Both the position numbers and the translations under genes were made by a program. DNA of 64,000 bases from Oscillospiraceae bacterium. GTDB taxonomy: Bacteria > Bacillota > Clostridia > Oscillospirales > Oscillospiraceae. The stretch is from contig JAFTFT010000027.1 of NCBI GenBank assembly GCA_017458335.1, positions 53,826-117,825 on the forward strand, in the 5' to 3' direction. This document shows, in pieces, positions 36,051 through 59,799 of this stretch. How positions within the stretch are numbered: the stretch's first letter is position 1; the number at the start of each line of letters is the position of its first letter. The notes under the pieces are model-generated. The model searched no databases. It saw only the letters and a list, made by a program, of their open reading frames with translations, and was not told the origin of the DNA.

Positions 36051-36094
36051 ACCACTTCAGAATGTCTTAATGCATGGAAGGGAGAATCGCCACC

Positions 36095-37211: not shown

Positions 37212-37811
37212 ATGAGCGAACCAAAGAGAAGAAAACGGCAGCGGATGGAAGTCCCGCCGGTGGAGCTGATGGAGGCCGAGCTTGGCAGAATGCGTCAGCA
37301 GGGCCGCAGAAGAAGCTCCGCCCGCAGCACGATGTACACGCTGCTGATCGTGGCGGCCTTCGCGGTGATCATGACGATCCTGATTCTGCCGGTGCTGACC
37401 ATCGAGGGCGTCTCGATGGAGGAGACGCTGTTCGACGGCGACGTCGTGATCGCGCTGAACAACCACCGCTACAAGACCGGCGACGTGATCGGCTTTTACT
37501 ATAATAACGAGGTCCTGATCAAGCGCGTGGTCGCCACGGAGACCGACTGGGTCGACATCGACCAGGACGGAACGGTGTACGTGAACAACGTCCGCCTGGA
37601 CGAGCCGTATATCAGCGAAAAGGCCTTCGGCGAGTGCAACATCAATCTGCCGTATCAGGTTCCGGAGGGCTGCTGCTTTGTGCTGGGCGACCACCGGGCC
37701 ACCAGCATCGACAGCCGCAACAGGTCCGTCGGCTGCATCCCCAACGACAAGGTCGTCGGGAGACTGCTGCTGAGGATCTGGCCGATTGAATCCTTCGGAA
37801 CCGTGGAATAA
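37212..37811 (+). CDS. lepB: Type I signal peptidase, tandem paralogue
   Basis: A 199-residue paralogue of the preceding gene with the same architecture: one helix (about residues 37-60), Ser in EGVSMEETL, Lys in VLIKRVVA and VLGDHRATSIDSR. Its most notable difference is in the Ser box (EGVSME versus SSGSME) and in the region just before it, which shapes the substrate pocket, so specificities may differ. Tandem duplication is clear from long stretches of shared sequence (KTGDVIGFYYNN and KTGDIIGFYYNN). Confidence 0.95.
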   Translation: MSEPKRRKRQRMEVPPVELMEAELGRMRQQGRRRSSARSTMYTLLIVAAFAVIMTILILPVLTIEGVSMEETLFDGDVVIALNNHRYKTGDVIGFYYNNEVLIKRVVATETDWVDIDQDGTVYVNNVRLDEPYISEKAFGECNINLPYQVPEGCCFVLGDHRATSIDSRNRSVGCIPNDKVVGRLLLRIWPIESFGTVE

Positions 37812-38153: not shown

Positions 38154-41100
38154 ATGAACAGACGTACGGAAAATCAAATCAACGCAATGCTGCGTGCGAT
38201 CAACAGACGCAGATGGCATGTCGTGCTGCTGGTCTGCCTTGCACTGGTGGTGACAGCCGGCGTGGCCGGCGTCTTCCATCTCCCCGCGATCGCGAAGACC
38301 TATCAGGTAACCCAGCTGACCTGTGCGGCCGTGCCGCCCGAGGGCCCGGCTTACGCGGACTTCTTCGTCCACATCCACAACGACGACTGCTTTGACGCAA
38401 ACGGAAACCTGGTCTGCCCGATGCCGGAAATCCGTCCTCACCGTCATACGGCGGACTGTTATACCACAACAAGAACGCTTATCTGCGCAGTTCCGGAATC
38501 AGACGGGCATCAGCACACGGCGGCCTGTTACACCCCTGTCCGCGGCGACCTGATCTGTGAACTCTCTACGGAGCCGGTTCTGGACGAGGAGGGCAATGTC
38601 CTTGAAGAGGGGCATGTCCACACGGACGAGTGCTTCGCATGGACGGAAGAACTTACCTGCGGCATGGAAGCGGGCGAAGGCGCCCACCACCATGACAACA
38701 GCTGCTATCAGACTGTTACGGCCCTGACCTGCGAGCAGCCGGAAATTTTGCTGCATACCCATACGGATGCCTGCTATCAGAAAAACGAGGACGGCAGCCT
38801 CTATGTGGACGAAGACGGAAACACCTGGCTGATCTGCGGGCAGCTGCAGGTCACCGAGCACGTCCACGGACCCGAGTGCTTCACAACCTATGAACTGGAT
38901 GACGGGGAATCGGAGTTCATCTTCATGGAAGAGAAAGAGACGGAAACTGCCGATGCCGATGCCGTAGACGTGAATACCGAAGGGGAAGAGCCCTCCACGG
39001 AAGAGCAGGAGACCGATCCCCAGACGACCGAAGGCAGTGACGAAGACGCCGAAGGCAACGACGCCGATACTGCCGAAACTGCAGACAGCACCGAGCCGAA
39101 CGCAGGCGAAGAAAATCAGGAAGCCGCGGCCGACGAAGCGGAAGCCGGCGTCGAAGAGGCGCACACGGTCGTTTACACCGGCACACGCGGCGCTGAAAAG
39201 GGCGGCATGACCGTCCTGGCCGAGATCCCGGAGGGCGCGCTGGATGAAAATGTCCAGCTGATCCTCACCGATGCGGACGAAAACGCTGCGCGGAAGCAGA
39301 TCCTCAGAGTGATCAATGAGAACGCCGCCGAGGGCGAAGAGCGGGAGATCTCCTCCATGCTGCTGCTGGACATCGGCTTTGCCGCCAGTGGAGAGCCCGC
39401 GGCGCTGAACGGCCTGGATCCCATCCGCGTCACGCTCAGGGCAGCCGCAATCCGTGGCATGAGCGCGCCGAAGCTGTTCCACCTGACGGGCGGAACCGCG
39501 CGGGAAGTGGAAGACGTCCTCTTCGACACCGAAGCGGGAACCGTGGTTTTCACCAGCACGACCTTCTCTCCCTTCGCGGTCGTGGACCTGACCGGTGAAG
39601 AGCAGACCGAAGAGACAACGGAAGTGACCGCCGAAGAGACGGTCAGCGAAAGCATGCCCGCAGCGCACTTTGAAGCGGAGACCGCTGGAGTGCTTGTCAC
39701 GGTCGATGCGCCCGAAGGCGCGTTCCCCGAAGGGACCACCATGGTCGTCAGTCAGGTTGAGATGGACGACGATACGCTCAGTAACATCACGGATGCGGTC
39801 GAGAGCAGCGGCGAGAAGAAAGTCGTCACCGCACAGGCCGTCGACATCAGTTTCTTTGACGCGGACCAGAATTTGATCGAACCGAAGCTCCCGATCAGAG
39901 TCAGCATGAAGTCCGCCATCGTCAGTGAGAGTGAAAACGTCGCCCTGGTCCACCTGGCCGAAACAGACACGGCGGAGACCTCCCAGAACGAGACGACCGA
40001 AGCCCCCGCCGCGCCCACCGCGGAAGTCGTAACCGATGTCCAGGTTGTGGAAAACCCGGATGAGGATAACGAGATCCAGTTCGAATCCGACGCCTTCTCG
40101 GTGTATGTTATCGTCGGAACAGTGATCGAAAAGAATGTACTGGCGAGTGATGGGAAGAATTATAAGGTTACTGTGACGTATGGGGCCGAGACCGGGATCC
40201 CGGAAGGGGCGGAACTGGAGGCAGAGGAAATACTGCCGGATGAAAACGACGATGCAAGCACTTTATCTGCTTACGACGAGTATGTTTCAAAGACTGAGAA
40301 TGCACTTGGCATGGAAGAAGGAACAGCGGGGTATATCCGGTTGTTTGATATCAAGATCGTGGATAAGGACGATCATGAGATTAAGTACCAGCCGGCGGAG
40401 GGTACTGTTGTTGACGTGCGGATTGAGCTGGCGGATGCGGAAGAAGGAAAAGACCTGAGCGTTGTGCATTTTGCGGATGGGGCGGAGGAAGGAGATAAGG
40501 TAGAGAGCAGTACAGAGTCTGTGGATGGCAGGCAGACAGTGAGCTTTGAAGCTTCAGGTTTTTCTGTATATGGGATCGTAGACCTCGACTCTGCAGAGAC
40601 AGCAGCATCTGTTGATGGGCTCGATGGAAACAGCTACTATCTGTCGATGGATGATGGAAACAACCGATATTATTATACCGACCCTTTGGTTTTGGTGAGC
40701 AACGCATGGAAATTCCAGAGGACTACAACTCTTGATTCTGCAAACCGATTCTATTTTGAGAAAACAGAGCCTGATGAGCAGGGTAATTGCTTATATATCT
40801 ACATATACGATGCAGAAGGAAATAAAAAGTACGTCAACCTGAAAATAATAGAAACAAACAATCTGAGATATTACGAATTCGGTGACGACGAAGAATCGGC
40901 AACAAAATATACGGTGGAGATCCATACGGAAGGTTCACCTACGTCTTTCGTGATTTATCATAAAAGGGCCAACAAGGAGTTTTATTACTGGAATCGAAAC
41001 GGCAGCTATTTTGAACTTGCGAAAGGTACCAGTACTTCTGTACCTAAAAACAACGGTACTAAGATCATCCTGACAAAAATCGGAGAGGGTGAGGATCCCT

Positions 41101-44100
41101 ATGGTCTTGACGGGCAGTCACTCGGTATTATCTGGAATGTGAATGATACATCCGGTTCAGGTATGATTTCTTCTACCGGGACGATGAGTTCCGAAATCAC
41201 ACTTTCCGATGGAAGCGGAAAGGTGAAGGAGACTGTCAATATCCTGAAAAACAAATCTACTACTGTAAGAATCGACCCTGTCAGCAGGACGGATCGTGTC
41301 TTTGTCGCGCAGAACAGTGATATTACGATGTGGACATTCGCCTGCTGCGGACCAGCCCAGTATTATATCACGGCAGTGGTAAACGGTGAACTGAAATATG
41401 TGCGATTTGATGACACGGTTAATGTTGGTACAGGCAATAAGGGCATTTCCCTGGTAGATACCCCTGATGAGAGATGCAAGATAACAGTAACCGAAGGGAC
41501 CGGCACTTACAGCGGAAAGTATAAGTTCAGCAGCAACGGCCGGACCCTCTATAACAATAACGGGAACTTTTATACGGTCGCCGACACACAGAACGGCTCA
41601 AATGTCTGGATGTATTTTGCCGAGCAGTCAAACCTGAACGATGACGACTTTGTGGTTTATACGGCAAAGAAGGTCAGCGTGTCCGGCACGGTGAATGATG
41701 ACGGAACCATTGATTATGATGTCAAGGATGGGGATCAGGTCGTCATCTATACCCGTATCTGGAACGAAACCACGCTGGAATACGAGTATTACGCAATCGA
41801 TTATGATGGCATGCTGGTAAGAGCTTATATGAGCGGTGATAACATTTCCTGGGTCGGCAGCAAGGTCAACACTATGCTGTGGGATTTCACGGAATATCAT
41901 TATCTTGATGATGACGGGAACGAAACGGATGTTCCAAACTACTATTATGAACTACAGAATAACTATTCCGGGAAGTATATTGCGCCGCAGGTAACAGGAG
42001 ACGAATTCCTGGCAGACAGCCCCATCGGTATCAACCTGAACGGGCGGCGGTATAACGAATATTACAGCACGATTTTGGCGTGGGATGATCCGTATTATGA
42101 TTATGCCATGCTCATGGTTCCCGAAAACGAGTACCAGCTTGGTTCCGCTCCGATCGCGCTGGCGAATGACACGACGATCACCAGGGACTTCTATTTTGCC
42201 ATCATGACAAATGATGAGGAAAGCGGTGAACTTTCAACGGTTGAGACAATTGATCACTCGGATTTTGGAATCACGATAAAAATGATCAACTATCCGGACG
42301 GTATGCAAAGCACTGCAAATGGCAATTACCATAATATGATCCAGACGGCTGTCCTGGGGCAGACATCAAAGAACGGAAGCACTGTTTATGCCAACCTGTT
42401 GAAAAAGAACCTGAGTGGTAACGGATATCCTGATGTCGCGCTGAACGGGTATACAAGTCATAATCTCAGTGAATTGTATTCTGCCTGCAGCGCTGCTTCT
42501 GAAACGACTGTCAACCATACTTTCCTTGCGAGCACCTACAGCGAGACCGGATACTTTGAATATGACTGTACCCAAAATTTTGCTCATCTGATTACAAGTG
42601 CGGACGATATCTGGTATGGTAAGCCAATGCCTGGCGGCGGTGCTTATGGCATTGGGGATATTGTTGTATACGATCAGCTGGGAACAACTTCGGAAACCGG
42701 AGATACGAGGCGCCACGGGCAGTACTTCCCCTACAATGACCTCGCAAAGACGGTAGAAGTGGATGAAGATGGCAATCTGGTCATTACGCCGGCTTATTCC
42801 TACTCCACCACGATGTATAACACGACGAATATCAAAGGGCAGGCGATCACATCGCTGGATCCGAGGTATGGAGAGCAGTTATACCAGATTCCAAACAGTT
42901 ATACCAATAAGCTTGCACCGAACGTTGACCATTACTTCGGCATGGAGATGGATGCCAGCTTCATGCAGAGTGAAAGCGGACTGGATGCCTGGGGACACGA
43001 TCTGATCTTTGAGTTCTCGGGAGACGATGACTTCTGGCTTTACATAGATGGCAAGTTGGTTCTGGATCTTGGCGGCATTCACTCGGCCTGCGATGGAAGC
43101 GTTAACTTCAGGACCGGGGAAGTAAATGTAAACGGTACTAAAACAACCCTTAGGGCGCTGTATAAAGCAGCATATCTGGAGGAGAACCCCGACGCAACGG
43201 AAGATGAGATCACGGCATATCTGGACGGCTTCTTCAAGGACGGAGGGACGGTCTTCAAGGACTACTCAGGCCATACCATGAAGATGTTCTATATGGAACG
43301 TGGTGCCGGCGCATCGAATCTTCACATGCGTTTTAACCTGGCACCTTATGTCAATGGTGAAGTGCAGCTGGAAAAGGAAGTAAGCGGAACTGATACCGTA
43401 AGTACACAGTTCCCGTTCCAGATCTGGTACTGGGATACAACCAGTGCCCGGTTTGTGCAGGCAAAGAGAGGGACGGAGACAGAGCCCTATGCTTATGACC
43501 CTTCTGTTCTGGATGCAACTACGAAGGAACCAGTACCATACCAGGCAGAATACAATGTGAACGGCGTAAGCTATCAGGGGGTTTATTTCCTGACTCCCGG
43601 CCAGACAGCCTCCATTCAGCTGCCTTCGGAAGATACGGAATACTATTTTGTGGAATGCGGGATCGCCCCAAACACCTATGATCAGGTAACGGCGAATGGA
43701 GAGATCCTTGAGGGAACCACTGTCACTGGTTCCGACACTCTGAAGAACTTTAAGATAGAAAAAGACACTGTTTCCGGGCGTAAGAAGGTCATCTACAACA
43801 ATCACGTCTCCGACAGCGCACAGAAGACGCTGACCGTGACGAAGAGGCTTTGGAGAGATTTTGGGAAAACGACGGAAATCCATAGCGGAGATGGAGCTGA
43901 TGCGGACAAAACCAACTTCCGGTTCAGGATCTATATTGGTTCCGGAACGGATAAGACAGTTGATGGAACCGGCTATGCCGTGTACAACACCGGTAAGTAC
44001 TATGTGAAGAACAGCGCGGGTGAATACTGTATCTGGCAAAATGGAGATTTTGTATCTACAGGAGAAACGGTCTTCTCGGAGCTGAATACGCAAAAAGCCG

Positions 44101-46169
44101 CAGGCGAGTGGAAGAGCGAAGCCGAGCAGGCCACCTTCTATAGCTCCCCGGGCGGTGCTGTTGATAACATTAAGGCGGGTTACAGCATAGAGATCCCCGG
44201 CCTGATGGCGGGAACGCCCTATTACATCGAAGAACGCAGCACCGAGATACCGGCAGGCTATAATCTGATTGGATATATGACTACGGAAGGTTCTTATTCA
44301 TCCGGGACAACAGGCACGGAAGACAACTGCGGTAGGATTGCGGCCGGCGACACCAACAGAACAGTCACAGTTCATAACCAGCACGGCTATGGCCTGATTG
44401 TGAATAAGGTCTGGTCAGACGCGGCATTCATGGAGTTGCATGATGATATTTACTTCGGCGTATATCTGAATGGCTCTCTGATGGAGGACTCTGTGCGGAG
44501 GCTTCATCATCCGGCGACCTCCATCAACTGGTTCTTCCCGGAACTGGAAAATGGCAGGACGCTGAATGACTATCAGGTATACGAACTGGAGCTGAAAAAG
44601 GGTGACAACCCTATTACTGATGGAGATATTACCGTTGATCCGGATACCGGAAAGGTAACCTGGTCTTCTGACTCAGGTGTTACTGTAATAAAAAAAGAAG
44701 CGAACAGTTCCATCAATGTCGGCGGCATTTCCAACGAGCATGGATATTCTGTCAGTTATTCCTATACCGTTAGTTATGAAAGACAGACACTGACGGCGGA
44801 CGATATCAATAATAAGGTGAATTCCCGCACAGATACCGTGTCGAACGCAAGGCCGGGTATCAAATTTGTGAAGACCGATCTCGGTGGAAGTCCACTTGGC
44901 GGCGCGAAGTTTGTGCTAACGGATGACAGCGGGACGATCAGGAAGACCTTCACTTCCGCGGAAGATGGTCTGATCGTGGTTTCCTATCTGGAAAACGATA
45001 AAGAATACACTCTTACTGAAACTGCCGCCCCGTACGGTTATCAGACATTGATTTCTTCCATTACCATTAAGAAAACGGTCAACGATAACGGCAAGACGGT
45101 TGTCTATGTGAATGGAGAAGCTGTAAGTGGTTCTGTAATGGATGAGACAAACGCATACGAACTCTATATCGTTTCCCAGGTAGATGAACCTACTGCCGAT
45201 AACATGCCTACGATCACGATCTGGAACAAGGATTATACACTGAAGGCCGTTAAGGTGGATGCGTATTCGTATGAACCAATGAAGGACGTAAAGTTCGCAC
45301 TGTATAAAGAAGTATATGAGACGGTAAACGGCGTTCCAAATCATGACTATCCGATGCCGGATTATAATCCGATGAGCGGGTACGACAACCTGACAACCGA
45401 TGAAAACGGTGTAATCCCGGGGATCTTCATGAAAAATTCCGAGACGCCCGGCGGACTGACTGCGGGTACTTATTACTTGCGTGAAGAGACACCATCCGGG
45501 TATAATTCCCTGGGCTTTGACATCAGAATTACGATCTCTGAAACCGGGGAGGTAACGCTTCAAAGCGCGACCCGCCCGGCTCAGTCAGGGCATTGGACAT
45601 TTGGCACTGTGTCAGACAGTGTTGCAAGCGTGGCTTACAGTGACGGGGTTATGCAGATCACGGTGAAAAACACGCCGAAGGATCCGGTGCGCATCAAAAA
45701 GCTTGAAATGCTGTCGAGGGATAAGGCTCTGGAAGGCGTTAAATTCGAGCTGTATAAAATCGGACAGATTGATGACGATGGACTGCCAAGAGAAGACGAA
45801 AGCGCTGTTATTTCCGGCGCTACAAATGAGTATGGTATTTTGCTGCTCGGCGGTCTGGAAGAGAATACATCATATTATCTGTATGAAACTGAAGCACTTC
45901 CCGGTTACAACATGCTCACTGCACCGGTCATCATCACAACGGCAGGACCAAACACGATCAATGCTTCGCTAAATGGCGCACCGCTTGGATGCCAGAAAGT
46001 CAAAGACAGTAACAATAACGACGTCTGGGAAATTACAGTTTACAATTCCACCGGCTACGAGCTTCCCTCCACCGGCGGCCCCGGTACCAACCTGATCTAC
46101 CTCCTCGGTACCATGATGACAGGCATCGCCGGCGTGGGTCTGGTGATGAGGAAGAGAAGGAGAACATAA
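38154..46169 (+). CDS. Giant LPxTG surface adhesin with His/Cys repeats, fibro-slime and Cna-B-like domains
   Basis: A 2671-residue wall-anchored protein. Residues about 20-45 are a signal/anchor helix. Residues about 55-246 hold repeated units ending in H-x-H-x(3)-C-Y, each followed about 10 residues later by another Cys. An acidic Glu/Thr linker (260-333) is followed by three related beta domains (336-479, 500-653, 659-813), a large beta-rich region, a fibro-slime/PA14-like domain (about 1500-1726: FGMEMDASF, FSGDDDFWLYIDGKLVLDLGG) and Cna-B/SpaA-like domains to 2630 (VKTDLGGSPLGGAKFVL). The end is the sorting signal LPSTG (2637), helix and RKRRRT. GGAGG precedes ATG 38154. DNA from about 40130 to 46040 is poorer in GC than both ends. 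Confidence 0.93.
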   Translation: MNRRTENQINAMLRAINRRRWHVVLLVCLALVVTAGVAGVFHLPAIAKTYQVTQLTCAAVPPEGPAYADFFVHIHNDDCFDANGNLVCPMPEIRPHRHTADCYTTTRTLICAVPESDGHQHTAACYTPVRGDLICELSTEPVLDEEGNVLEEGHVHTDECFAWTEELTCGMEAGEGAHHHDNSCYQTVTALTCEQPEILLHTHTDACYQKNEDGSLYVDEDGNTWLICGQLQVTEHVHGPECFTTYELDDGESEFIFMEEKETETADADAVDVNTEGEEPSTEEQETDPQTTEGSDEDAEGNDADTAETADSTEPNAGEENQEAAADEAEAGVEEAHTVVYTGTRGAEKGGMTVLAEIPEGALDENVQLILTDADENAARKQILRVINENAAEGEEREISSMLLLDIGFAASGEPAALNGLDPIRVTLRAAAIRGMSAPKLFHLTGGTAREVEDVLFDTEAGTVVFTSTTFSPFAVVDLTGEEQTEETTEVTAEETVSESMPAAHFEAETAGVLVTVDAPEGAFPEGTTMVVSQVEMDDDTLSNITDAVESSGEKKVVTAQAVDISFFDADQNLIEPKLPIRVSMKSAIVSESENVALVHLAETDTAETSQNETTEAPAAPTAEVVTDVQVVENPDEDNEIQFESDAFSVYVIVGTVIEKNVLASDGKNYKVTVTYGAETGIPEGAELEAEEILPDENDDASTLSAYDEYVSKTENALGMEEGTAGYIRLFDIKIVDKDDHEIKYQPAEGTVVDVRIELADAEEGKDLSVVHFADGAEEGDKVESSTESVDGRQTVSFEASGFSVYGIVDLDSAETAASVDGLDGNSYYLSMDDGNNRYYYTDPLVLVSNAWKFQRTTTLDSANRFYFEKTEPDEQGNCLYIYIYDAEGNKKYVNLKIIETNNLRYYEFGDDEESATKYTVEIHTEGSPTSFVIYHKRANKEFYYWNRNGSYFELAKGTSTSVPKNNGTKIILTKIGEGEDPYGLDGQSLGIIWNVNDTSGSGMISSTGTMSSEITLSDGSGKVKETVNILKNKSTTVRIDPVSRTDRVFVAQNSDITMWTFACCGPAQYYITAVVNGELKYVRFDDTVNVGTGNKGISLVDTPDERCKITVTEGTGTYSGKYKFSSNGRTLYNNNGNFYTVADTQNGSNVWMYFAEQSNLNDDDFVVYTAKKVSVSGTVNDDGTIDYDVKDGDQVVIYTRIWNETTLEYEYYAIDYDGMLVRAYMSGDNISWVGSKVNTMLWDFTEYHYLDDDGNETDVPNYYYELQNNYSGKYIAPQVTGDEFLADSPIGINLNGRRYNEYYSTILAWDDPYYDYAMLMVPENEYQLGSAPIALANDTTITRDFYFAIMTNDEESGELSTVETIDHSDFGITIKMINYPDGMQSTANGNYHNMIQTAVLGQTSKNGSTVYANLLKKNLSGNGYPDVALNGYTSHNLSELYSACSAASETTVNHTFLASTYSETGYFEYDCTQNFAHLITSADDIWYGKPMPGGGAYGIGDIVVYDQLGTTSETGDTRRHGQYFPYNDLAKTVEVDEDGNLVITPAYSYSTTMYNTTNIKGQAITSLDPRYGEQLYQIPNSYTNKLAPNVDHYFGMEMDASFMQSESGLDAWGHDLIFEFSGDDDFWLYIDGKLVLDLGGIHSACDGSVNFRTGEVNVNGTKTTLRALYKAAYLEENPDATEDEITAYLDGFFKDGGTVFKDYSGHTMKMFYMERGAGASNLHMRFNLAPYVNGEVQLEKEVSGTDTVSTQFPFQIWYWDTTSARFVQAKRGTETEPYAYDPSVLDATTKEPVPYQAEYNVNGVSYQGVYFLTPGQTASIQLPSEDTEYYFVECGIAPNTYDQVTANGEILEGTTVTGSDTLKNFKIEKDTVSGRKKVIYNNHVSDSAQKTLTVTKRLWRDFGKTTEIHSGDGADADKTNFRFRIYIGSGTDKTVDGTGYAVYNTGKYYVKNSAGEYCIWQNGDFVSTGETVFSELNTQKAAGEWKSEAEQATFYSSPGGAVDNIKAGYSIEIPGLMAGTPYYIEERSTEIPAGYNLIGYMTTEGSYSSGTTGTEDNCGRIAAGDTNRTVTVHNQHGYGLIVNKVWSDAAFMELHDDIYFGVYLNGSLMEDSVRRLHHPATSINWFFPELENGRTLNDYQVYELELKKGDNPITDGDITVDPDTGKVTWSSDSGVTVIKKEANSSINVGGISNEHGYSVSYSYTVSYERQTLTADDINNKVNSRTDTVSNARPGIKFVKTDLGGSPLGGAKFVLTDDSGTIRKTFTSAEDGLIVVSYLENDKEYTLTETAAPYGYQTLISSITIKKTVNDNGKTVVYVNGEAVSGSVMDETNAYELYIVSQVDEPTADNMPTITIWNKDYTLKAVKVDAYSYEPMKDVKFALYKEVYETVNGVPNHDYPMPDYNPMSGYDNLTTDENGVIPGIFMKNSETPGGLTAGTYYLREETPSGYNSLGFDIRITISETGEVTLQSATRPAQSGHWTFGTVSDSVASVAYSDGVMQITVKNTPKDPVRIKKLEMLSRDKALEGVKFELYKIGQIDDDGLPREDESAVISGATNEYGILLLGGLEENTSYYLYETEALPGYNMLTAPVIITTAGPNTINASLNGAPLGCQKVKDSNNNDVWEITVYNSTGYELPSTGGPGTNLIYLLGTMMTGIAGVGLVMRKRRRT

Positions 46170-48546: not shown

Positions 48547-48649
48547 TATCGGAGGAATCGGTACCGCGATCTTCACGGTGACCGGCGGGATCATGACAGC
48601 GTTGGCCGGGGCGATCCTGACACTGAAGAAGCGGAAGGAACACGTCTGA
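48545..48649 (+). pseudogene. Decayed LPxTG sorting-signal tail of a lost surface protein
   Basis: The frame directly after the nuclease gene reads LVNIGGIGTAIFTVTGG, then a hydrophobic stretch ending LKKRKEHV and a TGA stop at 48647-48649. This is a C-terminal sorting signal: hydrophobic helix and basic tail, with LVNIGG in the place of LPNTGG. No start codon or upstream body exists. It implies that a sortase substrate gene upstream of the sortase was destroyed by the transposon insertions. Confidence 0.7.
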
Positions 48650-48696: not shown

Positions 48697-48746
48697 CACA
48701 AAACAGCATGACAAATACCGCGGCAGGCTCCGGAAACGGAGCCTGC
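48697..48746. repeat. 50-bp direct repeat, left copy, with hairpin
   Basis: The copy at 48697-48746 and that at 50363-50412 agree at 47 of 50 positions by direct alignment. Each contains GCAGGCTCCG-gaaa-CGGAGCCTGC, a 10-bp perfect stem. They bracket the ATPase gene at 49024-50346. Confidence 0.9.
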
Positions 48747-50362: not shown

Positions 50363-50412
50363 CACAAAACCGCACAACAAATACCGCGGCAGGCTCCGGA
50401 AACGGAGCCTGC
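50363..50412. repeat. 50-bp direct repeat, right copy, with hairpin
   Basis: Second copy of the repeat at 48697-48746. Its hairpin is followed by TGTATTTTCG, so it may act as the ATPase terminator. The rest of the gap to 50625 is AT-rich and holds the sortase promoter. Confidence 0.9.
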
Positions 50413-50625: not shown

Positions 50626-51885
50626 ATGAGTAAGAAGAAAAGACCTCTGACCGCAGAGGAAAAGAGAAGAAAAAAGAGATCGGCGTTGGGAACCTGGATC
50701 CTTGTCCTGATCATGCTGATCGGCCTGGGAATTATGGCTTACCCGACGGTGAGCGACTGGTGGAACTCGTTCCATGCATCCCGCGCCATCGCCTCCTACT
50801 CCAACGCCGTCGAGAACGTGGACAAGGAAAAACTGGATGAGATGATCCAGGCCGCGCATGAATATAACGAAAGACTGCTCAAGAAGCCGAATCCCTATAC
50901 CATGACGGATGAGGACCTGGCGGAATACAACTCCCTGCTGGACCTCTCCGGCACCGGCATCATCGGATATATCACCATCAAGTCTATCGGCGTGTATATC
51001 CCCATCTACCACGGGGTGGAAGAATCCGTCCTGCAGATCGCCATCGGCCACATCGACTGGACCTCGCTTCCGGTGGGCGGCGAGAGCACCCACGCGGTTG
51101 TCTCCGGACACCGCGGCCTGCCCAGCGCGAAGCTCTTCACCGATCTGGACCAGCTGAGAGAGGGCGACACCTTCACCATCACGGTCCTGAACCAGATGAT
51201 CACCTATGAGGTCGACCAGATCCGCATCGTGGAACCCGGCGACATCTCGGAGCTGGCCATCGCACCCGGAAAGGACTACTGCACACTGGTCACCTGCACC
51301 CCCTACGGCATCAACACCCACCGCCTACTGATCCGCGGCACGCGCGTCGCGAACGAGGCCGGCGAGCTGGTGGTACCGGCGGAGGCCTTCCGGATCCCGA
51401 ACTACATCACCATCCCGGCCATCGGCGTGCCGCTGCTGTTCCTGACGCTGATCATCCTGCTTGTTGTCTCGGGACGCAGAAAACCGAAGATCAAGACAGC
51501 AGACCTGTACCGCATGATCGAGGAAGTGACGGAACAGCCCACGAAAAACAATAAACGCTCGGCACCGAAGAAACCCGAAGCAAAACCGAAGAACACCCCG
51601 GTGAAGGAGCCGGATGTAAAACCCGAAGACAAACCGGTTGAAGACCCGGAAGTGAAACCCGAAAGCGAACCGGCCAAAGAACCGGAAGCGAAACCCGAAG
51701 ACGAACCGGCCAAAGAACCGGAAGCGAAACCCGAAGACAAACCGGTTGAAGAGCCGGAAGTGAAACCCGAAGACGAACCGGCCAAAGAACCGGAAGCGGA
51801 ACCCGAGAAAGAACCCGAAATCTCAGCGGAAGAACCAAACCACAGCGCCGCGGAGGACGCTCCGGACGGCGGAGAAGAAAAGTGA
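50626..51885 (+). CDS. Class C-like pilus sortase with long cytoplasmic repeat tail
   Basis: A 419-residue transpeptidase that should join LPxTG-type subunits into fibres. A basic start and helix (residues about 22-40) are followed by the sortase barrel: His162 in SGHRGLPSAKLF, Cys224 in LVTCTPYG and Arg in THRLLIRG, the class C signature set. A second helix (about 270-290) is typical of class C. After it comes an unusual tail of about 125 residues made of Lys-Pro-Glu-rich repeats (EPAKEPEAKPED units), predicted to be cytoplasmic. DNA of the tail (51590-51830) is tandemly repeated. First gene of the fibre operon. Confidence 0.93.
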   Translation: MSKKKRPLTAEEKRRKKRSALGTWILVLIMLIGLGIMAYPTVSDWWNSFHASRAIASYSNAVENVDKEKLDEMIQAAHEYNERLLKKPNPYTMTDEDLAEYNSLLDLSGTGIIGYITIKSIGVYIPIYHGVEESVLQIAIGHIDWTSLPVGGESTHAVVSGHRGLPSAKLFTDLDQLREGDTFTITVLNQMITYEVDQIRIVEPGDISELAIAPGKDYCTLVTCTPYGINTHRLLIRGTRVANEAGELVVPAEAFRIPNYITIPAIGVPLLFLTLIILLVVSGRRKPKIKTADLYRMIEEVTEQPTKNNKRSAPKKPEAKPKNTPVKEPDVKPEDKPVEDPEVKPESEPAKEPEAKPEDEPAKEPEAKPEDKPVEEPEVKPEDEPAKEPEAEPEKEPEISAEEPNHSAAEDAPDGGEEK

Positions 51886-51898
51886 GGAGAGACGGCCA

Positions 51899-53212
51899 AT
51901 GAGAATGAATACACAGCGTATCCTGGCAGCACTGCTCAGCCTGGTCCTGCTGCTGGCGCTAGCACCGGCAGGCTGGGCGGAACAAGGCGGAGAGGCAGGT
52001 GCAGCGAACGAGCCTGTCCTGGAAGGCAGCGGTGACGGCGGGGCCGTTTCACTGCCTGCCGCGGGAGTGGTGCTGGTAGACGGAGCCTATGGAGTCAATG
52101 TCAATCTGGTTCCAGGCGATAAAGAAGGAACAGCCTACGAGACTGAAATCGTAAAAGCACAAGTTCAAGCCGATCTGTATCTGATTGCAAGTGCAAAGGC
52201 GGATCCTATGTATGATACCTACACCTATAGTTATGAAGGGTCATCCTTTGCGGGCTTGCAAGAAAGTATCAAAACAGCTTTGGTAGCAGATCCAGATAAC
52301 CAGAATGATCGGAACACCATGCTGAAGAAATTCTCTCCGATTGCACAGGCCGCAGCGAAGCTCGTGCAGGAGCAGAGTATTACTCCGTCAATAGATCCGG
52401 TTGCGGCTGGAGGGGCAACTGAAATAAGTCTTAGCGGATTGAATGCGGGAATGTATTTGTTGATCCTTCGTGGAGCAAATTTGAAAAACGATGGGTCCGC
52501 AACGAGTTCTTTCACAACGACAACAAAAAAAGGCAGCAACGCGTATAACGAATTTGCAGAGAACACAGATGGATCAAAGGATGCCACAATAACTGTAACC
52601 AGGGCGATATCCGACAATTATGAGTTTCTGTTTGAGCCGCAGCTGATAACTGTACCAACTAAAGTGGATAATACCACAACTCCTGCGACTCAGAACTATA
52701 ATACCGCCTATGGTGAATGGGAAAACATTTTAACGATCACAGCTAAGCCTGAGATGAAACCGCGATATGGAAAGGTTAAGATCATAAAGACCCTTGACAA
52801 TTATATAGATCTCAGTGAAAATCAAATCAAAGAGCCTGCACTCTTCGTGTTCGAGATTACGGCAGTGAAACCCTCTGAGACAGAGGGGGAAGAGGGCACC
52901 GTCGTATTTAAAGATGTCAGAGGAATCGAGTTTACCGCAACTGGCCAAGAATCAATCGTAGTAGATCATATCCCTGCAGGTTCAGTTGTTACGGTAAAGG
53001 AAGTCTCTTCCGGAGCAAGCTATACTGCGGTATCACCGCTTACCGTTTCAGGCATAGAAATCACAGCAGAACAAGATCTGGACAAAATAGCAAAGGCGGA
53101 ATTTGAAAACTATTTCAATGGACGAAACGGTGGACACGGAATTATCAATGAGATAGAATATGACGGTCAGAAATGGCACAGCGATCAGGAAGGAGAAGGT
53201 TGGCATGAATAA
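51899..53212 (+). CDS. Pilin-like secreted protein with isopeptide-type domain
   Basis: A 437-residue exported protein. The signal peptide ends AGWA. Residues about 60-250 form a pilin-like N-terminal domain with an Ala-rich helix (SPIAQAAAKLVQE) and SLSGLNAGMYLLIL. Residues about 290-410 look like a Cna-B/DUF5979-type domain: the Lys of YGKVKIIKTLDN and the Glu of VTVKEVSSG are placed as isopeptide-bond partners. It has no C-terminal helix or sorting motif, and ends EGEGWHE with the next gene overlapping by 8 bases. The first 180 bases are GC-rich; the rest is AT-rich. Likely a fibre subunit; homologues with this ending lack an anchor too, from memory. Confidence 0.75.
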   Translation: MRMNTQRILAALLSLVLLLALAPAGWAEQGGEAGAANEPVLEGSGDGGAVSLPAAGVVLVDGAYGVNVNLVPGDKEGTAYETEIVKAQVQADLYLIASAKADPMYDTYTYSYEGSSFAGLQESIKTALVADPDNQNDRNTMLKKFSPIAQAAAKLVQEQSITPSIDPVAAGGATEISLSGLNAGMYLLILRGANLKNDGSATSSFTTTTKKGSNAYNEFAENTDGSKDATITVTRAISDNYEFLFEPQLITVPTKVDNTTTPATQNYNTAYGEWENILTITAKPEMKPRYGKVKIIKTLDNYIDLSENQIKEPALFVFEITAVKPSETEGEEGTVVFKDVRGIEFTATGQESIVVDHIPAGSVVTVKEVSSGASYTAVSPLTVSGIEITAEQDLDKIAKAEFENYFNGRNGGHGIINEIEYDGQKWHSDQEGEGWHE

Positions 53213-53786
53213 GAGAAAGCTTGTTTTAATACTTCTGGTTTTCGCTCTGATTACTTGTGCCAATATTCAGCCTGCAATTGCATACTTTACTACTTTCACC
53301 TATGCAAAAGGCAGCCATCCAATATACCTGCGTGATACGACGAGAATCGAAGAGCAGTTTTCAAACATGACTAAGCATGTCAGAATTAGCAGTGATGCCA
53401 ATTCTGAACCAGTTTGGGTGCGGGCAAAAGTCTTTTATGCATATCAGGGAATAGATGAGATAAAAATAAATGAAGCAGGTAATCCTAAATGGCAAGAAGG
53501 GGAAACAGACGATAACGGATATGTCTACTACAACTATTCTGATCCATTGCCAGGGGGAGGAAAGACAGACGAACTCACGGTAACTATATATGCAAAGAGC
53601 AAAGAGATCATTAATCCTGATGATGGCGACCAGTATAATGTTATCGTAACTTATGAGAGCACTCCAGTACGCTATGACGAGGATGGAATTCGCTTACCTG
53701 TTGATTGGAATACACAACTGCTGCAATATGATAGTAACGGAGAGATTGTTCCTGTTTTCGAAGACAATGAGGAGGGGAATGGTTGA
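53205..53786 (+). CDS. SipW-type secreted fibre protein (TasA/CalY-like)
   Basis: A 193-residue protein from ATG 53205 (GGAGAAGG before it). Residues 5-27 are a signal helix ending with AYFTTFTYAKG; AYFT at the cleavage region is the hallmark of SipW-dependent signal peptides, as in TasA and camelysin relatives. The mature part is beta-rich (HVRISSDANSEPVWVRAKVFY, VTIYAKSKEIINPDDGDQYNVIVTYESTPV), fitting a donor-strand-type fibre subunit. It overlaps both neighbours by a few bases. The operon carries its own SipW-type peptidase downstream. Confidence 0.75.
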   Translation: MNKRKLVLILLVFALITCANIQPAIAYFTTFTYAKGSHPIYLRDTTRIEEQFSNMTKHVRISSDANSEPVWVRAKVFYAYQGIDEIKINEAGNPKWQEGETDDNGYVYYNYSDPLPGGGKTDELTVTIYAKSKEIINPDDGDQYNVIVTYESTPVRYDEDGIRLPVDWNTQLLQYDSNGEIVPVFEDNEEGNG

Positions 53787-54619
53787 TGAAGATGAAAAAG
53801 ATTAGATCGTTTTCTCGTTCTCCTATGGGAACTACGTTTTTGTTCATGCTCGCGATTCTTTTTCTGATGACAGGCACAATCGGCGGCGTGCGTGCTGCAC
53901 CCCAGATTTACAATGAGAACTCCGGCTATGGCGGGGTACAGTTGGATACAATCGGCGTTTCCCTATATGAAAATGATAAGCTGGTTGGCAGCAGAAACTA
54001 TGAGCGCGACTACAGCAATGATAGTACTGCGAAAGCGGACTTCGTGGAGGGCGGTTCTCATGTGCTGCTGTCTAACATGCTGGGAGACGAAAATAAAATC
54101 CAACTGGGACGTAAATATACTGAAAAACTTCACGTAGTCAACAGCGGTAATATTCCGGAATATGTCCGAGTGACCATATATAAGTATTGGACAGATAGCG
54201 CTGGTAATAAAGTTGCAGCAACAGACAGATTGAGCCCGGATTTAATAGATCTTCATTTGCTGGTTAACAACAACAATGGTTGGGTAATGGACACAGAGGA
54301 TAAAGAAACCAACACTAGAGAAAGAACTGTCTTGTATTATACTTCTTTGCTTGGAATTGGTAACCCAACCCCATATTTTACAGATACTTTAAAAATCGAT
54401 GAAAGAATTATTGATTTGGTTGATATAAAAACCAGTACAACTACGGGCGATGGAAATAAAATAGTAGAAACTGTAACATGGTTGGCTGAGGATGGGTATC
54501 AATTCTGGATTGAGGTTGAAGTAGATGCTGTTCAGAATCATAATGCCGAAGATGCAGTGAGAAGTGCATGGGGACTTCAAGCAAGTGATTCTATGTATAA
54601 AGCTATTTTTGGGTCATGA
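53786..54619 (+). CDS. Probable second SipW-type fibre protein
   Basis: A 277-residue protein from ATG 53786 (TTG 53783 is an alternative), overlapping the previous stop (TGATG). A helix at about residues 15-32 is followed by GGVRAAPQIYNENSGYGGVQLDTIGVSLYEN; RAA plus the tyrosine-rich start resembles other fibre subunits processed by SipW-type enzymes. The mature part has KLHVVNSGNIPEYVRVTIYKYW, a strand pattern seen in camelysin/TasA-like proteins, and VTWLAEDGYQFWIEVEVDAVQ near the end. No anchor. AT-rich relative to its surroundings. Confidence 0.65.
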   Translation: MKMKKIRSFSRSPMGTTFLFMLAILFLMTGTIGGVRAAPQIYNENSGYGGVQLDTIGVSLYENDKLVGSRNYERDYSNDSTAKADFVEGGSHVLLSNMLGDENKIQLGRKYTEKLHVVNSGNIPEYVRVTIYKYWTDSAGNKVAATDRLSPDLIDLHLLVNNNNGWVMDTEDKETNTRERTVLYYTSLLGIGNPTPYFTDTLKIDERIIDLVDIKTSTTTGDGNKIVETVTWLAEDGYQFWIEVEVDAVQNHNAEDAVRSAWGLQASDSMYKAIFGS

Positions 54620-54634
54620 AAGGAGTGAATCTAG

Positions 54635-55459
54635 ATGAAAAAAATTATTTCGCTTCTATTTACACTCAGCTTGATAATTGCTTTTTCAACTGTTGCCTAC
54701 TCCGATAATATGGGAAGTGTCAGTATTGGGACAGTATGGTTTGAATACGACGGTAAATCTATGGATAATAACTTCCAATATCTGGACGAAGACGACGAAG
54801 ACACAATGAAAGCGAGAAAAGCTAACCCGAACATAGAAGATGTGCTTAGCAATCGTGCGCAAAAACTCCAACCTGGCGATGAGATCGAATTCACGATTAA
54901 TATGAAAAATTACTATACTAAGGCATCTGATTGGTATCTTACACATGACATCATAGACTCCTTGGAGAGAGGTTCAGCACAAGACGGAGCTTATGATTAT
55001 GAGTTGGGATACATGAAAACGAAGTCATCTGATCCGAAGATTTTATTCAGCAGTGATAATGTTGGCGGTGATAATACTCAAGGTCTTGAAGTAATCAACG
55101 ATGTTCTGAAAACAGATTATACACATAATGGTCAAAAATATCTATTCCTTGATACCCTGAAAGCGAACGAAGGGAACAATGACGGCCCTTATGTATATCT
55201 GAAAATGACATTGGATGGTGAAACACAAGGAAACGGGTATCAGGAGCGTCTGGCTGACTTAAAAATGAATTTTGCTGTTCAAGTTGTCGAACCGTCAGGC
55301 GGAACTACAACCACAACACGAACCGCACCGAAGACAGGTGACGATCACAATTTACTTCCGTATTATATTGCGATGACAATCAGTGGCTTGTTGTTCCTTT
55401 ATTTTGCATTGGATGCATATACGGACAGACTGTACAAGAAAGGCAAGGGAAGGCCATGA
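54635..55459 (+). CDS. Surface protein with APKTG sorting-like signal
   Basis: A 274-residue protein. Residues 1-22 are a signal peptide ending AYS. The mature domain (VSIGTVWFEYDGKS, YYTKASDWYLTHDIIDSLE, FLDTLKANEGN, GPYVYLKMTLDGE) is unfamiliar. After a GGTTTTTR linker the C terminus reads APKTGDDHNLLPYY, a hydrophobic helix, then YTDRLYKKGKGRP: a sorting signal with APKTG instead of LPxTG. It overlaps the next gene by 4 bases and is a probable sortase substrate or fibre tip/base subunit. Bases 54901-54960 contain only 19 G or C. Confidence 0.75.
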   Translation: MKKIISLLFTLSLIIAFSTVAYSDNMGSVSIGTVWFEYDGKSMDNNFQYLDEDDEDTMKARKANPNIEDVLSNRAQKLQPGDEIEFTINMKNYYTKASDWYLTHDIIDSLERGSAQDGAYDYELGYMKTKSSDPKILFSSDNVGGDNTQGLEVINDVLKTDYTHNGQKYLFLDTLKANEGNNDGPYVYLKMTLDGETQGNGYQERLADLKMNFAVQVVEPSGGTTTTTRTAPKTGDDHNLLPYYIAMTISGLLFLYFALDAYTDRLYKKGKGRP

Positions 55460-56514
55460 AACGGATAAATTCATTGTTATCCTTGCTGATAGTGCTTGTT
55501 CTGATTCTTGGGATGCCGTCTTTTGCGTTTGCTGATGAAAATTCAGCGACAGACCTCGGATATTACAGAATTCGTGTTTACGGCGGTAGAGTTGCACCAG
55601 GGTTGGTATATGATGAACTGATTGACCGCAGTGCAAATGTTATAAGCCTCGCAGAGGATATTGGAGTAGGAAGCAAGGTTACTTTCGGTAAAAAATCATA
55701 CTATGTAAAAGACGTTTTACGTGAAAGCGGTAAAGAGAGACCTGAAGCAGTTGAACGTGATCAACTGTATAACGTCCCAATCGACAAAGACCGTGATTAC
55801 GTTCGGGTCTATGAAGTGTTAAGAAATCAGGCGGTTTACTATGTTGACTATCTCGATGCTAGCGGAAACGAACTGAGACCCAGAAGCGTGCCGCGATATG
55901 CAAACGTTGGAGATATAGTATATGTTGCAGCACTTGAGATACCCGGATATACGCCAGATGCCAGATTCCGTACAAATACAGATGGAATAACAGACGGATA
56001 TGTGTTTACTTTTCGCTATACGCGTACTCCCACGACAACCGGAGGCGGTACAACGACCACAACGACAACCGGCGGTGGCGGCGGCGGAGCTGCTGTAGCA
56101 GGCGGTGCAGCTGCGAATGCGAACGCTAATAATGCAGCAAACAACCCGAATGCAGCGAATAACCCGAACGACAACAATCAGAATCCCAATACCCCGACCA
56201 ATAATACTAATACCGGAACACAGCCTGTTACACCGGCAACTCCGCTGGACATCATTGATGAAGCTGAAGTGCCTCTGGCTGCACCGGATTTCGGTATGGT
56301 AGGAACGGCATCCGTTCCGAGTGCGCCTCAGGTGATTGAACCGAGTCAGCATAGCAGAATACCGAACTGGATGTTGATTGCCGGCGCGGTGCTCCTGGTC
56401 GGACTGATCTCCGTTCTGTACTGGTATCTCCTGTTCTATCGCAAGAAGAAAAAGTACGCGAGCCTCAATGAGGACTATGACATCCTCGACTTCGACAGTA
56501 ACGACGACTTCTGA
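55456..56514 (+). CDS. C-terminally anchored surface protein with Gly/Asn-rich stalk
   Basis: A 352-residue protein. Signal peptide to about residue 27 (FAFA). Residues 30-115 form an unfamiliar domain (YYRIRVYGGRVAPGLVYDELID). Residues about 118-190 resemble a MucBP-like module (YYVDYLDASGNELRP, VGDIVYVAALEIPGYTPD). A low-complexity stalk follows, rich in Thr, Gly, Ala and Asn (TTTTTTGGGGGG, NNPNAANNPN). Residues about 302-325 are a membrane helix, then RKKKKYASLNEDYDILDFDSNDDF in the cytoplasm. There is no sorting motif, so it stays in the membrane. It may be the base or receptor of the fibre system. Confidence 0.75.
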   Translation: MKRINSLLSLLIVLVLILGMPSFAFADENSATDLGYYRIRVYGGRVAPGLVYDELIDRSANVISLAEDIGVGSKVTFGKKSYYVKDVLRESGKERPEAVERDQLYNVPIDKDRDYVRVYEVLRNQAVYYVDYLDASGNELRPRSVPRYANVGDIVYVAALEIPGYTPDARFRTNTDGITDGYVFTFRYTRTPTTTGGGTTTTTTTGGGGGGAAVAGGAAANANANNAANNPNAANNPNDNNQNPNTPTNNTNTGTQPVTPATPLDIIDEAEVPLAAPDFGMVGTASVPSAPQVIEPSQHSRIPNWMLIAGAVLLVGLISVLYWYLLFYRKKKKYASLNEDYDILDFDSNDDF

Positions 56515-56525
56515 GGGGAAAACCA

Positions 56526-57149
56526 ATGGCAAACAGGACGTCCTCTTCGCGGCGCCCGATCAAAAAGGGCGGGATGTTGATTCCCGCCCTTTGCAATATT
56601 ATCGGGACGCTGCTTTTGATTGCAGTAATCGCGACAAGTATTCCCCTGGCGATCCCCACTCTGCTGGGATATGAGATCTATAACGTTACGAGCGGGAGCA
56701 TGGAGCCTGAGCTTCCCGTAGGAAGCGTTATCTATGTTGAACATGTTAAGCCGGAATCGATCAAAGAAGGAGAAATTATAGCCTTTTACAGTGGTGGAAG
56801 TGTAATCACACATAGAGCTGTGGAGAACTACCTGTTTGAAGGTAAAATATCTACAAAAGGTGATGCCAATCCAAGGGTCGACTTCAACGATGTCCCGTAT
56901 GCAGATGTAATAGGCGTTGTGAAATACCATTTCCCTTATCTCGGCAATTACCTGATGATCTATTCTCATCAGCTTACAAAGGTTTATCTCATTGTTCTGG
57001 CCTTCTGCGGCGTGATGTTTAACGTCCTGGCCGGGCGGATGCGGGCGCATTCGGAAGAGAAGTTCCGCGTCCAGGTGGAGCAGTGGGAGCGGCGGCAGGC
57101 CGCACGCAGCAGGGCCGAGATGGAGCAGATCCGCAAGCAGAGCCGCTGA
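56526..57149 (+). CDS. sipW: SipW-type (ER-type) signal peptidase
   Basis: A 207-residue membrane protease. One helix at about residues 20-42 precedes the catalytic domain with Ser in TSGSMEPELPVGS and His (not Lys) in VITHRAVE, the Ser-His pair of ER-type peptidases such as SipW; the third box is STKGDANPRVD. A second helix follows at about 145-165, then a charged cytoplasmic tail. In Bacillus, SipW processes TasA-type fibre proteins. It closes the operon with two SipW-type substrates upstream. GAGGGG precedes ATG 56526. Confidence 0.93.
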   Translation: MANRTSSSRRPIKKGGMLIPALCNIIGTLLLIAVIATSIPLAIPTLLGYEIYNVTSGSMEPELPVGSVIYVEHVKPESIKEGEIIAFYSGGSVITHRAVENYLFEGKISTKGDANPRVDFNDVPYADVIGVVKYHFPYLGNYLMIYSHQLTKVYLIVLAFCGVMFNVLAGRMRAHSEEKFRVQVEQWERRQAARSRAEMEQIRKQSR

Positions 57150-58833: not shown

Positions 58834-58893
58834 TCTTTACGCGGATGGCCGGAGAAGTTCAACTGAGCGAGAGTCGAAATGAAATCCGCACTC

Positions 58894-58922
58894 TTGGCAA
58901 AGCCCGCGGAATGTGGTATTGT
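58894..58922 (+). promoter_or_regulatory. Promoter of the class B-like sortase gene
   Basis: TTGGCA (58894-58899) and TATTGT (58917-58922) are 17 bases apart, 35 bases upstream of ATG 58957. Confidence 0.75.
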
Positions 58923-58956
58923 ACACATATCAAACAACGACACGGAGAAAACGCCT

Positions 58957-59799
58957 ATGTGGAAGAAAATACGAAGAGTCCTGATGATCGTCCTGGCCGC
59001 GGTCTTTCTGTTCTGCGGCGGGACGGTGGCGGTGGTCCAGCACCAGTACAACGTCAGCAAGCGCCTCTACCGCGCGGCCTCCGATACCTTCACGTCCGCG
59101 GCCTCCGCCGAGGAGCTGACCGCGGAACAGACGCCGGCAGCCGCCCCCGCACCGGAGGAGAGCGCACGGCCCTCGCGGCTCAACGACGGGGTCTACCGCC
59201 TGCCGGAGAAGGCGCCGATCAAGGTTGACTTCGCGGCCCTGCAGAAGGTCAACCCCGACGTGGACGGATGGATCTACTGCCCGGGCACGGTGATCGATTA
59301 CCCGGTGATGCACGGCGCGTCCAACGATACCTATCTCCACCACAGCTATGACGGGACCTACAACGCCTCCGGCTCGATCTTTGTAGACGAGCGGAACCAG
59401 CGCTACTTCGCCGACCCGGTGACCATTCTCTACGGGCACCACATGGCAAGCGGGGCAATGTTTGCGACGCTGCAGTGGTGGGGGCTTAAGAGCTACCTTG
59501 ACGAGCACCCGATCATGTGGCTGCTGACGCCGGATCAGGACTATAAGGTCGAACTCTACAGCGCCTATACCACCTCGGCCTACAGCAATACCTATGAGAT
59601 CCCGCTGGCCGGGACGGATCCGTCGAACTATATCTGGATGGCGGAGAACTCCTCCGACTGGCACATCTTTCCCGATCTGGACCCCACCGCGCACTACATC
59701 GTCATGTCCACCTGCGCCTATATCTTTGAAGACGCGCGCTCCGTGCTGCACGGAAAGCTGGCGCCGGTGATGACCGCGGGCGGCGAGCTGATCCGGTAA
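58957..59799 (+). CDS. Class B-like sortase
   Basis: A 280-residue transpeptidase from ATG 58957 (GGAG 12 bases upstream; the frame is open to 58879). A helix at about residues 8-25 is followed by an Ala/Pro/Glu-rich linker and the sortase barrel, beginning VDFAALQKVNPDVDGWIYCPGTVIDYPVM, the class B entry motif. Catalytic residues are His in LYGHHMASGAMF, Cys in VMSTCAY and Arg in EDARSVLHGKL. Class B enzymes usually anchor single proteins, often with NPQTN-like signals, or in Clostridia (S/N)PxTG. No substrate gene is adjacent; it may act on fibre proteins of the island, for example the APKTG protein. Confidence 0.92.
   Translation: MWKKIRRVLMIVLAAVFLFCGGTVAVVQHQYNVSKRLYRAASDTFTSAASAEELTAEQTPAAAPAPEESARPSRLNDGVYRLPEKAPIKVDFAALQKVNPDVDGWIYCPGTVIDYPVMHGASNDTYLHHSYDGTYNASGSIFVDERNQRYFADPVTILYGHHMASGAMFATLQWWGLKSYLDEHPIMWLLTPDQDYKVELYSAYTTSAYSNTYEIPLAGTDPSNYIWMAENSSDWHIFPDLDPTAHYIVMSTCAYIFEDARSVLHGKLAPVMTAGGELIR

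Follow-up and report, generated by a model that had tools for sequence, protein, structure and literature searches.

Gene content of the locus

A stretch of 64,000 nucleotides from an Oscillospiraceae bacterium (GCA_017458335.1, contig JAFTFT010000027.1, positions 53,826 to 117,825 of the forward strand), here called the window, was analysed for a run of seven genes that brings together a pilus sortase and a signal peptidase of the SipW type. The seven genes, referred to as the cassette, are as follows.

50626..51885, plus strand, class C pilus sortase SrtC (NF033745)
51899..53212, plus strand, PIL, pilin-like protein (PF19407; conservation)
53205..53786, plus strand, O3, BsaA-like protein with the SipW-type signal end AYFTTF (alignment A6, AlphaFold model)
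53786..54619, plus strand, O4, BsaA-like protein with the signal end GGVRAAPQIY (alignment A7, AlphaFold model)
54635..55459, plus strand, O5, with C-terminal APKTGD, membrane span and basic tail (alignment of relatives)
55456..56514, plus strand, O6, stalk protein with a low-complexity linker and a C-terminal membrane span (62 sequences aligned)
56526..57149, plus strand, SipW, signal peptidase of the endoplasmic reticulum (ER)/archaeal type (TIGR02228; conserved Ser/His/Asp)

All seven had been named in an earlier note on this DNA and are present, each overlapping or nearly touching its neighbour, with successive gaps of 13, -8, -1, 15, -4 and 11 bp. An alternative TTG start of O4 at 53783 would change the O3/O4 gap from -1 to -4 bp. 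For O3 a start at 53205 is more likely than one at 53160. No Pfam or NCBIfam model exceeded its cut-off for the O3, O4, O5 and O6 proteins of the window.

Gene order and distribution in relatives

One genome per species was scanned with a three-sequence O4 alignment. The scan resulted in 72 loci, numbered with the prefix L, which together with the window make 73; L016 and L017 were dropped as the same places as L033 and L054. To sort the plus-strand open reading frames (ORFs) of the loci, profiles were started from the window and L016 and then iterated over the loci. Titles of the source records include Lachnospiraceae, Oscillospiraceae, Ruminococcaceae, Erysipelotrichaceae, Eubacterium and others. 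Many are metagenome assemblies; isolates are represented by Acetatifactor muris (DSM 23669, L053), by an Acutalibacter species (strain 1XD8-36, L054) and by Dorea and Neglectibacter species.

The order SrtC-PIL-O3-O4-O5-O6-SipW was found contiguous in 47 of the 73 loci, with median gaps of -8 to 21 bp, which is far beyond chance and excludes a gene order unique to this strain. The earlier observation that a pilus sortase and a SipW module share one operon is supported: the operon is conserved, its second module is of the SipW/BsaA type, and its genes also co-vary (see below). In 37 of the 47 full loci the gene directly before SrtC encodes a shaft pilin. PIL-O3-O4-O5-O6 stood in order in 59 of 72 loci, and mostly one copy of each gene was present per locus. 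Many of the remaining 26 loci contain contig ends, fused neighbours or insertions, and L089 and L090 are distant. Fusions of neighbouring genes were seen for O5-O6 (L035, L080, L081 and L083) and for O4-O5 (L082).

The cassette is patchily distributed. Counting the own genome where it matches, the O4 protein was found in 3 of 200 genomes of the family and the O5 protein in 4 of 295 genomes of the order. The O4 profile was found in 15 of 393 genomes of the class, the own genome included and several of the matches distant. TIGR04090, the model of the BsaA family, matched in 43 of the 393 genomes of the class, the own genome not being among them.

The pilus sortase and the pilin-like protein

SrtC scored 272 bits against NF033745 (cut-off 160), and was thereby assigned to the pilus-specific class C sortases. 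It has two predicted membrane spans and an acidic tail of 12-amino-acid (aa) repeats, encoded by a repeat with a period of 36 bp at 51536-51823.

PIL gave a weak match to PF19407 (DUF5979; 27.4 bits, cut-off 25). It contains the motif W274-x8-K283, the spacing of which we take to be that of the pilin motif, followed by a C-terminal CnaB-type domain with K297, E368 and N404 and by the tail GHGIINEI. Conservation was counted in aligned columns of 61 unfused copies; this count omits the 2356-aa ORF of L052, the 120-aa piece of L064 and an 879-aa hit outside the set. Tryptophan of the pilin motif was present in 59 of the 61 copies and the lysine (K283) in all; for the CnaB-type domain the figures were 61 (Lys297), 61 (Glu368) and 58 (Asn404). 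The aligned column was used instead of a strict pilin-motif pattern, which matched 41 of 69 PIL-labelled ORFs, one double and one match that fell by chance within a giant protein being among them.

The short tail, with Asn417 kept in 61/61 unfused copies, stands where LPXTG would be expected. No LPXTG-like motif was detected in the last 60 residues of any of the 69 PIL-labelled ORFs, so that the wall-anchoring sorting signal of a base pilin is itself missing from PIL. With a lysine to accept a partner and no LPXTG to donate, PIL would end a sortase-built chain. By its signals it looks like a base pilin at the end of such a chain.

The putative fibre subunits O3 and O4

The signal peptide of O3 ends in YF(T/S)T, with the phenylalanine invariant and Y and T kept in at least 90% of 67 sequences. 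The O4 signal commonly ends in RAA(L/P), and in AAF in more distant relatives. The O3 alignment (A6, 67 rows) omits L056, L081, L089 and L090; the O4 alignment (A7, 65 rows) omits L056, L072, L081, L082, L089, L090 and the half copies L086 and L087. TIGR04090 was matched at E <= 0.01 by 31 of the 67 O3 sequences (best E = 2.8e-9) and by 49 of the 65 O4 sequences (best 3.2e-9); O5, which served as a control, gave 0/62 matches. Window O4 scored 17.6 bits, below the cut-off of 60, and window O3 was unmatched. An hhalign comparison found a segment common to O3 and O4 (95.9%). Judged by these sequence profiles, the two families are remote relatives of BsaA.

AlphaFold (AF2) models were built for O3 and O4, with predicted local distance difference test values of 82 and 80, respectively. 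Both show a beta-sandwich, and the residues immediately behind the signal are modelled with low confidence. A Foldseek search placed the TasA fibre structure 8aur at E = 0.024 for O3 and 0.021 for O4, tied with unrelated beta-sandwiches. The BsaA kinship of O3 and O4 thus comes from the sequence profiles, and the models leave the fold comparison with TasA, which the earlier note had named as a check, at a tie.

The same note suggested that O3 and O4 are pilus subunits which are cleaved by SipW and then coupled covalently by a sortase. The location in the same operon and the secreted beta-sandwich models would suit such a role, but neither window O3 and O4 nor the family consensus has a sorting signal or a C-terminal membrane span, which makes the proposal very unlikely. 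Its mechanism needs revision: sortases probably act at two points, where SrtC joins the shaft to PIL and where a second sortase, described below, joins O5 to the wall.

O5, O6, SipW and a class B sortase

Downstream of the cassette the following two genes were located.

57207-58637, minus strand, ATPase gene between sipW and the SrtB gene
58879..59799, plus strand, class B sortase SrtB (TIGR03064; position in relatives)

SipW scored 81 bits against TIGR02228 (cut-off 51.85). Its catalytic residues Ser58, His96 and Asp113 were kept at 98-100% in 61 aligned copies (98% for His96), and the histidine in place of lysine is that of an ER-type signal peptidase. SrtB scored 155.5 bits against TIGR03064 (cut-off 153.75) and probably starts at 58957 rather than at 58879. 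In relatives SrtB is found directly behind sipW, or fused to it, and by this comparison it is counted with the set. SipW and SrtB form one open frame in L046, L078 and L085, which are titled Oscillospiraceae, and in L094, which is of the same class but outside the order of the window. All four fusions exceeded the cut-offs of both TIGR02228 and TIGR03064. In L094 two tandem O3-O6 sets, each with a PIL gene, lie beside two SrtC genes and the SipW-SrtB fusion.

O5 carries T(G/S)D before its membrane span (T in 65/65, D in 97% and G in 83%). TIGR03063 (srtB_target) was matched at E <= 0.01 by 11 of 62 O5 sequences, window O5 being unmatched; the underlying alignment (A8, 62 rows) omits L056, L072, L089, L090 and ORFs outside 230-320 aa. 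SrtB of Clostridioides difficile is reported to accept (S/P)PXTG and, less well, NPKTG and NVQTG (PMC5118464, from the available text). The resemblance of these motifs to APKTG and VKTG, the SipW-SrtB fusions, the T(G/S)D end and the srtB_target matches make SrtB and O5 a natural pair, and O5 a candidate substrate of SrtB. Kinship of O5 with O3 and O4 is not claimed: hhalign gave 41% with O4 and 46% with O3, and 1 of 62 O5 sequences matched the TasA model (E = 0.0072). Cross-hits of the O4 profile on O5 were not used, the profile having absorbed a fused O4-O5 ORF. For O6 no Pfam match at E <= 0.1 and no NCBIfam model over its cut-off was found.

In streptococcal pilus islands a signal-peptidase-like protein, SipA, is thought to be a pilus assembly factor. 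O3, O4, O5 and O6 could likewise be non-structural and form, together with SipW, a membrane-bound assembly factor. The single copy of each gene in most loci, the membrane ends on O5 and O6 and the co-variation would all be in line with this. We regard it as rather unlikely, however, in view of the resemblance of O3 and O4 to a secreted protein that forms polymers, of the sortase-type signal at the end of O5 and of the catalytic residues retained in SipW.

Co-variation and fused forms of PIL

Pairwise distances of the cassette proteins were compared across the 47 full loci. The highest co-variation was observed for PIL and O3 (0.87), followed by O3-O4, O4-O5 and O5-O6 with 0.86 each. SrtC co-varied with the other proteins at 0.64 to 0.69 (0.68 with PIL) and SipW at 0.58 to 0.68. 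The largest value of any pair in 300 permutations was 0.31. Strong co-variation of neighbours fits a chain of contacts.

A giant protein carries the CnaB-type domain and tail of PIL at its end in seven loci (L039, L073, L076, L080, L081, L083 and L084). It is complete in L039 only, with 2924 aa. In L073, L080, L083 and L084 the fetched DNA is too short for the whole ORF, of which it covers 3149 to 3166 aa, and in L076 (1998 aa) and L081 (265 aa) the ORF begins at a contig end. The acceptor lysine was absent from all seven fused forms, and the Lys, Glu and Asn of the CnaB-type domain and the tail Asn were kept in all seven. O3 and O4 followed the giant gene in 7/7 loci and O5 and O6 in 6/7, as one fused ORF in L080, L081 and L083; L073 stops at a contig end. 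SipW follows in L076 and L084. A genome-wide search gave no class C sortase match in four of the seven genomes. The other three have one class C sortase each, in a separate full cassette of the order SHAFT-SrtC-PIL-O3-O4-O5-O6-SipW. Two of these cassettes, L167 in the genome of L083 and L168 in that of L039, share no DNA with the fused loci and carry the SipW of these genomes; in the genome of L080 the coordinates of the class C sortase are those of the L088 cassette. Three genomes thus hold a fused giant-PIL locus together with a full cassette with its own SrtC, that is, two versions of the system per cell. Where the last domain of PIL joins a giant protein, sequence comparison indicates that O3 and O4 are retained and that the acceptor lysine and a class C sortase of the locus are not.

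These results bear on the possibility that the operon serves for joint expression of two independent fibres, a sortase pilus (adhesin, shaft and PIL) and a BsaA/TasA-like biofilm fibre (O3-O6 and SipW), with no physical link. Support for separate fibres is found in Clostridium perfringens, in which the sortase pilus locus VR-10B and its alternative VR-10A occupy the same site (PMC8088525) and BsaA polymerises without the neighbouring sortase (PMC7395162), according to the available parts of these papers. We consider two fibres possible but fairly improbable, as PIL would then be left without an anchor signal of its own, it co-varies more strongly with O3 than with SrtC, and its last domain in the fused forms stays with O3 and O4 and with no class C sortase of that locus.

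Flanking genes and the state of the locus in this genome

The following features precede the cassette in the window.

36074..36589, plus strand, coiled-coil protein CC at the head of the region (own hidden Markov model, HMM)
36589..37182, plus strand, type I signal peptidase, Lys type (SGSMENT and VLIKRV read from the sequence; HMM class SPI)
37212..37811, plus strand, second type I signal peptidase, Lys type (ORF; HMM class SPI)
38154..46169, plus strand, giant surface adhesin of 2671 aa with SpaA repeats, fibro-slime domain and LPSTG anchor (PF17802, 1.9e-30; TIGR02148, TIGR01167)
~48550..48649, plus strand, shaft pilin gene remnant (shaft profile A9 and ORF reading)

CC relatives were detected by the HMM in 17 of 75 locus entries, counting the window and two double entries. 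The two signal peptidases and the giant LPxTG adhesin were placed upstream by the earlier note and are present. In the window they lie outside the tight operon of SrtC, since the adhesin and SrtC are about 4.4 kb apart, with mobile-element-like ORFs and an AAA/DUF4143 ATPase gene in between. SrtB (58879) and the shaft pilin remnant are two parts of the locus which that note did not include.

The shaft profile A9 matched G000:C14:102376-102459, corresponding to profile positions 500-527 of 532. The remnant is the end of a sorting signal only (membrane span and basic tail) and lies directly behind a 208-aa mobile-element-like ORF; no other shaft pilin with a sorting signal was found within the window locus. 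Two full-length shaft-type genes were found on contig C16 by the same profile, and a Pfam sortase search of that contig gave no match. The assembly, 84% complete, yielded no class C sortase besides window SrtC. With a remnant in the locus, the shaft pilins of contig C16 would have to serve in trans.

A direct repeat of 50 nucleotides, 94% identical and with a terminator-like hairpin, is present at 48697-48746 and 50363-50412. The two copies flank the AAA/DUF4143 ATPase gene (49024-50346), as if this gene had been inserted. A perfect 35-bp tandem repeat (46300-46369) lies beside minus-strand ORFs at 46399-46770 and 47094-47537, which we take to be pieces of an IS66-type transposase. At 60034-62947 two ORFs are presumably phage terminase and portal proteins, perhaps at a prophage edge.

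In L029, L042, L091-L093 and L095 a gene presumed to encode a SARP/BTAD-type regulator lies beside the cassette, its O4-O5-O6 part or a SipW/SrtB pair. Genes taken to be PilT-, GspF- and pseudopilin-like adjoin a transglutaminase-like gene in L017, L092 and L093; among these three loci SrtC was labelled in L017 only.

A possible composite fibre

On balance, the cassette probably encodes one composite surface fibre, in which PIL would connect a sortase pilus to a base processed by SipW. In this model SrtC would join the giant LPxTG adhesin, as the tip, and the LPSTG shaft pilin into a covalent pilus. Growth would end once the pilin-motif lysine of PIL has received the final shaft subunit; lacking a sorting signal, PIL itself would not be passed on. 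The CnaB-type domain and [I/V]xNxF-like tail of PIL would then dock on O3 without a sortase, a donor-strand contact as in TasA/TapA being the likeliest form of docking. O3 and O4, with O3 first, would be BsaA/TasA-like subunits released from the membrane by SipW. They would sit on O5 and on the membrane stalk O6, and SrtB would attach O5 to the wall via the (P/V)(K/R)T(G/S)D signal. The model takes the parts, their order, the sorting signals present and absent, the pilin lysine, the fusions and the co-variation from sequence comparison; from these we infer which parts touch, which of them act as tip, base and anchor, and that SipW cleaves O3 and O4.

A number of observations weigh against a composite fibre. 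No fold match of the models decides for TasA, as cohesins, integrin and AP2 domains score equally well. The co-variation of neighbours is confounded by shared descent, and SipW co-varies less, at the values given above. SrtB was labelled in just 26 of 72 loci, and deletion of srtB next to sipW-bsaA in C. perfringens is reported to leave BsaA polymers and pellicles unchanged (PMC7395162, available text). In the window the shaft gene of the locus itself has been lost.

The fused forms call for similar caution. The domain preceding the CnaB unit is missing from them altogether, and loss of the lysine may be a by-product of this. Since five of the six longer fused forms are titled Erysipelotrichaceae, they may go back to few independent events. 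DNA upstream of the giant genes was seen only as 670 bp in L039, the assemblies are of unstated completeness, and the SrtC of a second cassette could act in trans. No SipW was found within about 8 kb downstream in L039 and L083, the genomes of which have SipW in the full cassette, and none was found in the genome of L073 (G473).

Sortase pili and TasA-type fibres have so far been treated as separate systems, and the cassette, widely kept among related gut bacteria, could be a new way of fixing a pilus to the cell. If the model is true, it changes the account of how such pili end and are held, the base pilin not being anchorable by a sortase, and assigns a function to several unannotated families of gut Clostridia. 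The cassette makes the capping of SipW-type fibres, and what docks on them, directly testable.

PIL-like ends on other large proteins

Larger stretches were obtained from 37 of the 43 genomes matching TIGR04090 and from one more genome found with the O4 profile. A PIL-like tail motif was present in 15 of 41 large secreted-looking proteins near SipW, O3 or O4, compared with 14 of 178 other ORFs of at least 300 aa (Fisher p = 1.3e-5, 39 stretches), but the motif had first been spotted by eye in some of the same loci. Comparison of PIL with those large proteins gave 96% in hhalign, for a profile of 18 of the 41 proteins picked by eye. A PIL-only profile found the CnaB domain in several large proteins, the tail-only part being weak. 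At other SipW/BsaA loci, where SrtC is not adjacent, large secreted-looking proteins thus often appear to close with this CnaB-type domain, in many cases followed by a tail like that of PIL.

These ends tentatively point to a further, non-LPXTG way in Clostridia to fix large surface proteins, an idea we hold to be possible but less likely than not. The donor strand for SipW-processed BsaA-like fibres would come from a C-terminal CnaB-type domain with an [I/V]xNx[F/Y]-like tail; base pilins such as PIL would dock a sortase pilus in this way, and giant adhesins would use it directly.

Comparison with known systems

A search of the literature by titles and abstract openings, subscription papers and preprints aside, found no joined locus of a sortase pilus and SipW. 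The papers compared below are described from their available parts. With the class C (SpaA-type) pili of Gram-positive bacteria the cassette shares SrtC, the LPxTG adhesin, the LPSTG shaft pilin (in relatives) and the pilin-motif lysine. It differs in that its base-like subunit has the lysine and no LPXTG, and in the SipW/BsaA-type genes that follow.

In C. perfringens the operon sipW-bsaABCRSD (bsaA = CPE0515) makes BsaA polymers (PMC7395162). SipW, a secreted subunit of the BsaA family and a class B sortase gene beside sipW are common to both systems. VR-10B and VR-10A both lie beside srtB2 (CPE0513; PMC8088525), and the locus tags of bsaA (CPE0515) and of the flanking srtB2 (CPE0513) suggest that VR-10A is the sipW-bsa locus. 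A sortase pilus locus would thus be found at apparently the same site in other strains, a further likeness. Unlike in the cassette, the pilus locus and the other locus replace each other there, BsaA polymers do not depend on srtB, and a cassette SrtC-PIL-O3-O4-O5-O6 is not described in the available text.

TasA fibres form by donor-strand exchange, and TapA has been proposed to give the first strand (PMC9674648; PMC9715654). With tapA-sipW-tasA of Bacillus subtilis the cassette shares a dedicated SipW, beta-sandwich subunits (here predicted) and an accessory protein proposed as first donor, whereas no sortase gene is part of that operon as described (PMC9674648). A sortase-independent system of TasA, CalY and CapP is also reported from Bacillus cereus (PMC13082335). 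The proposed donor strand is C-terminal in PIL and N-terminal in TapA (PMC9674648).

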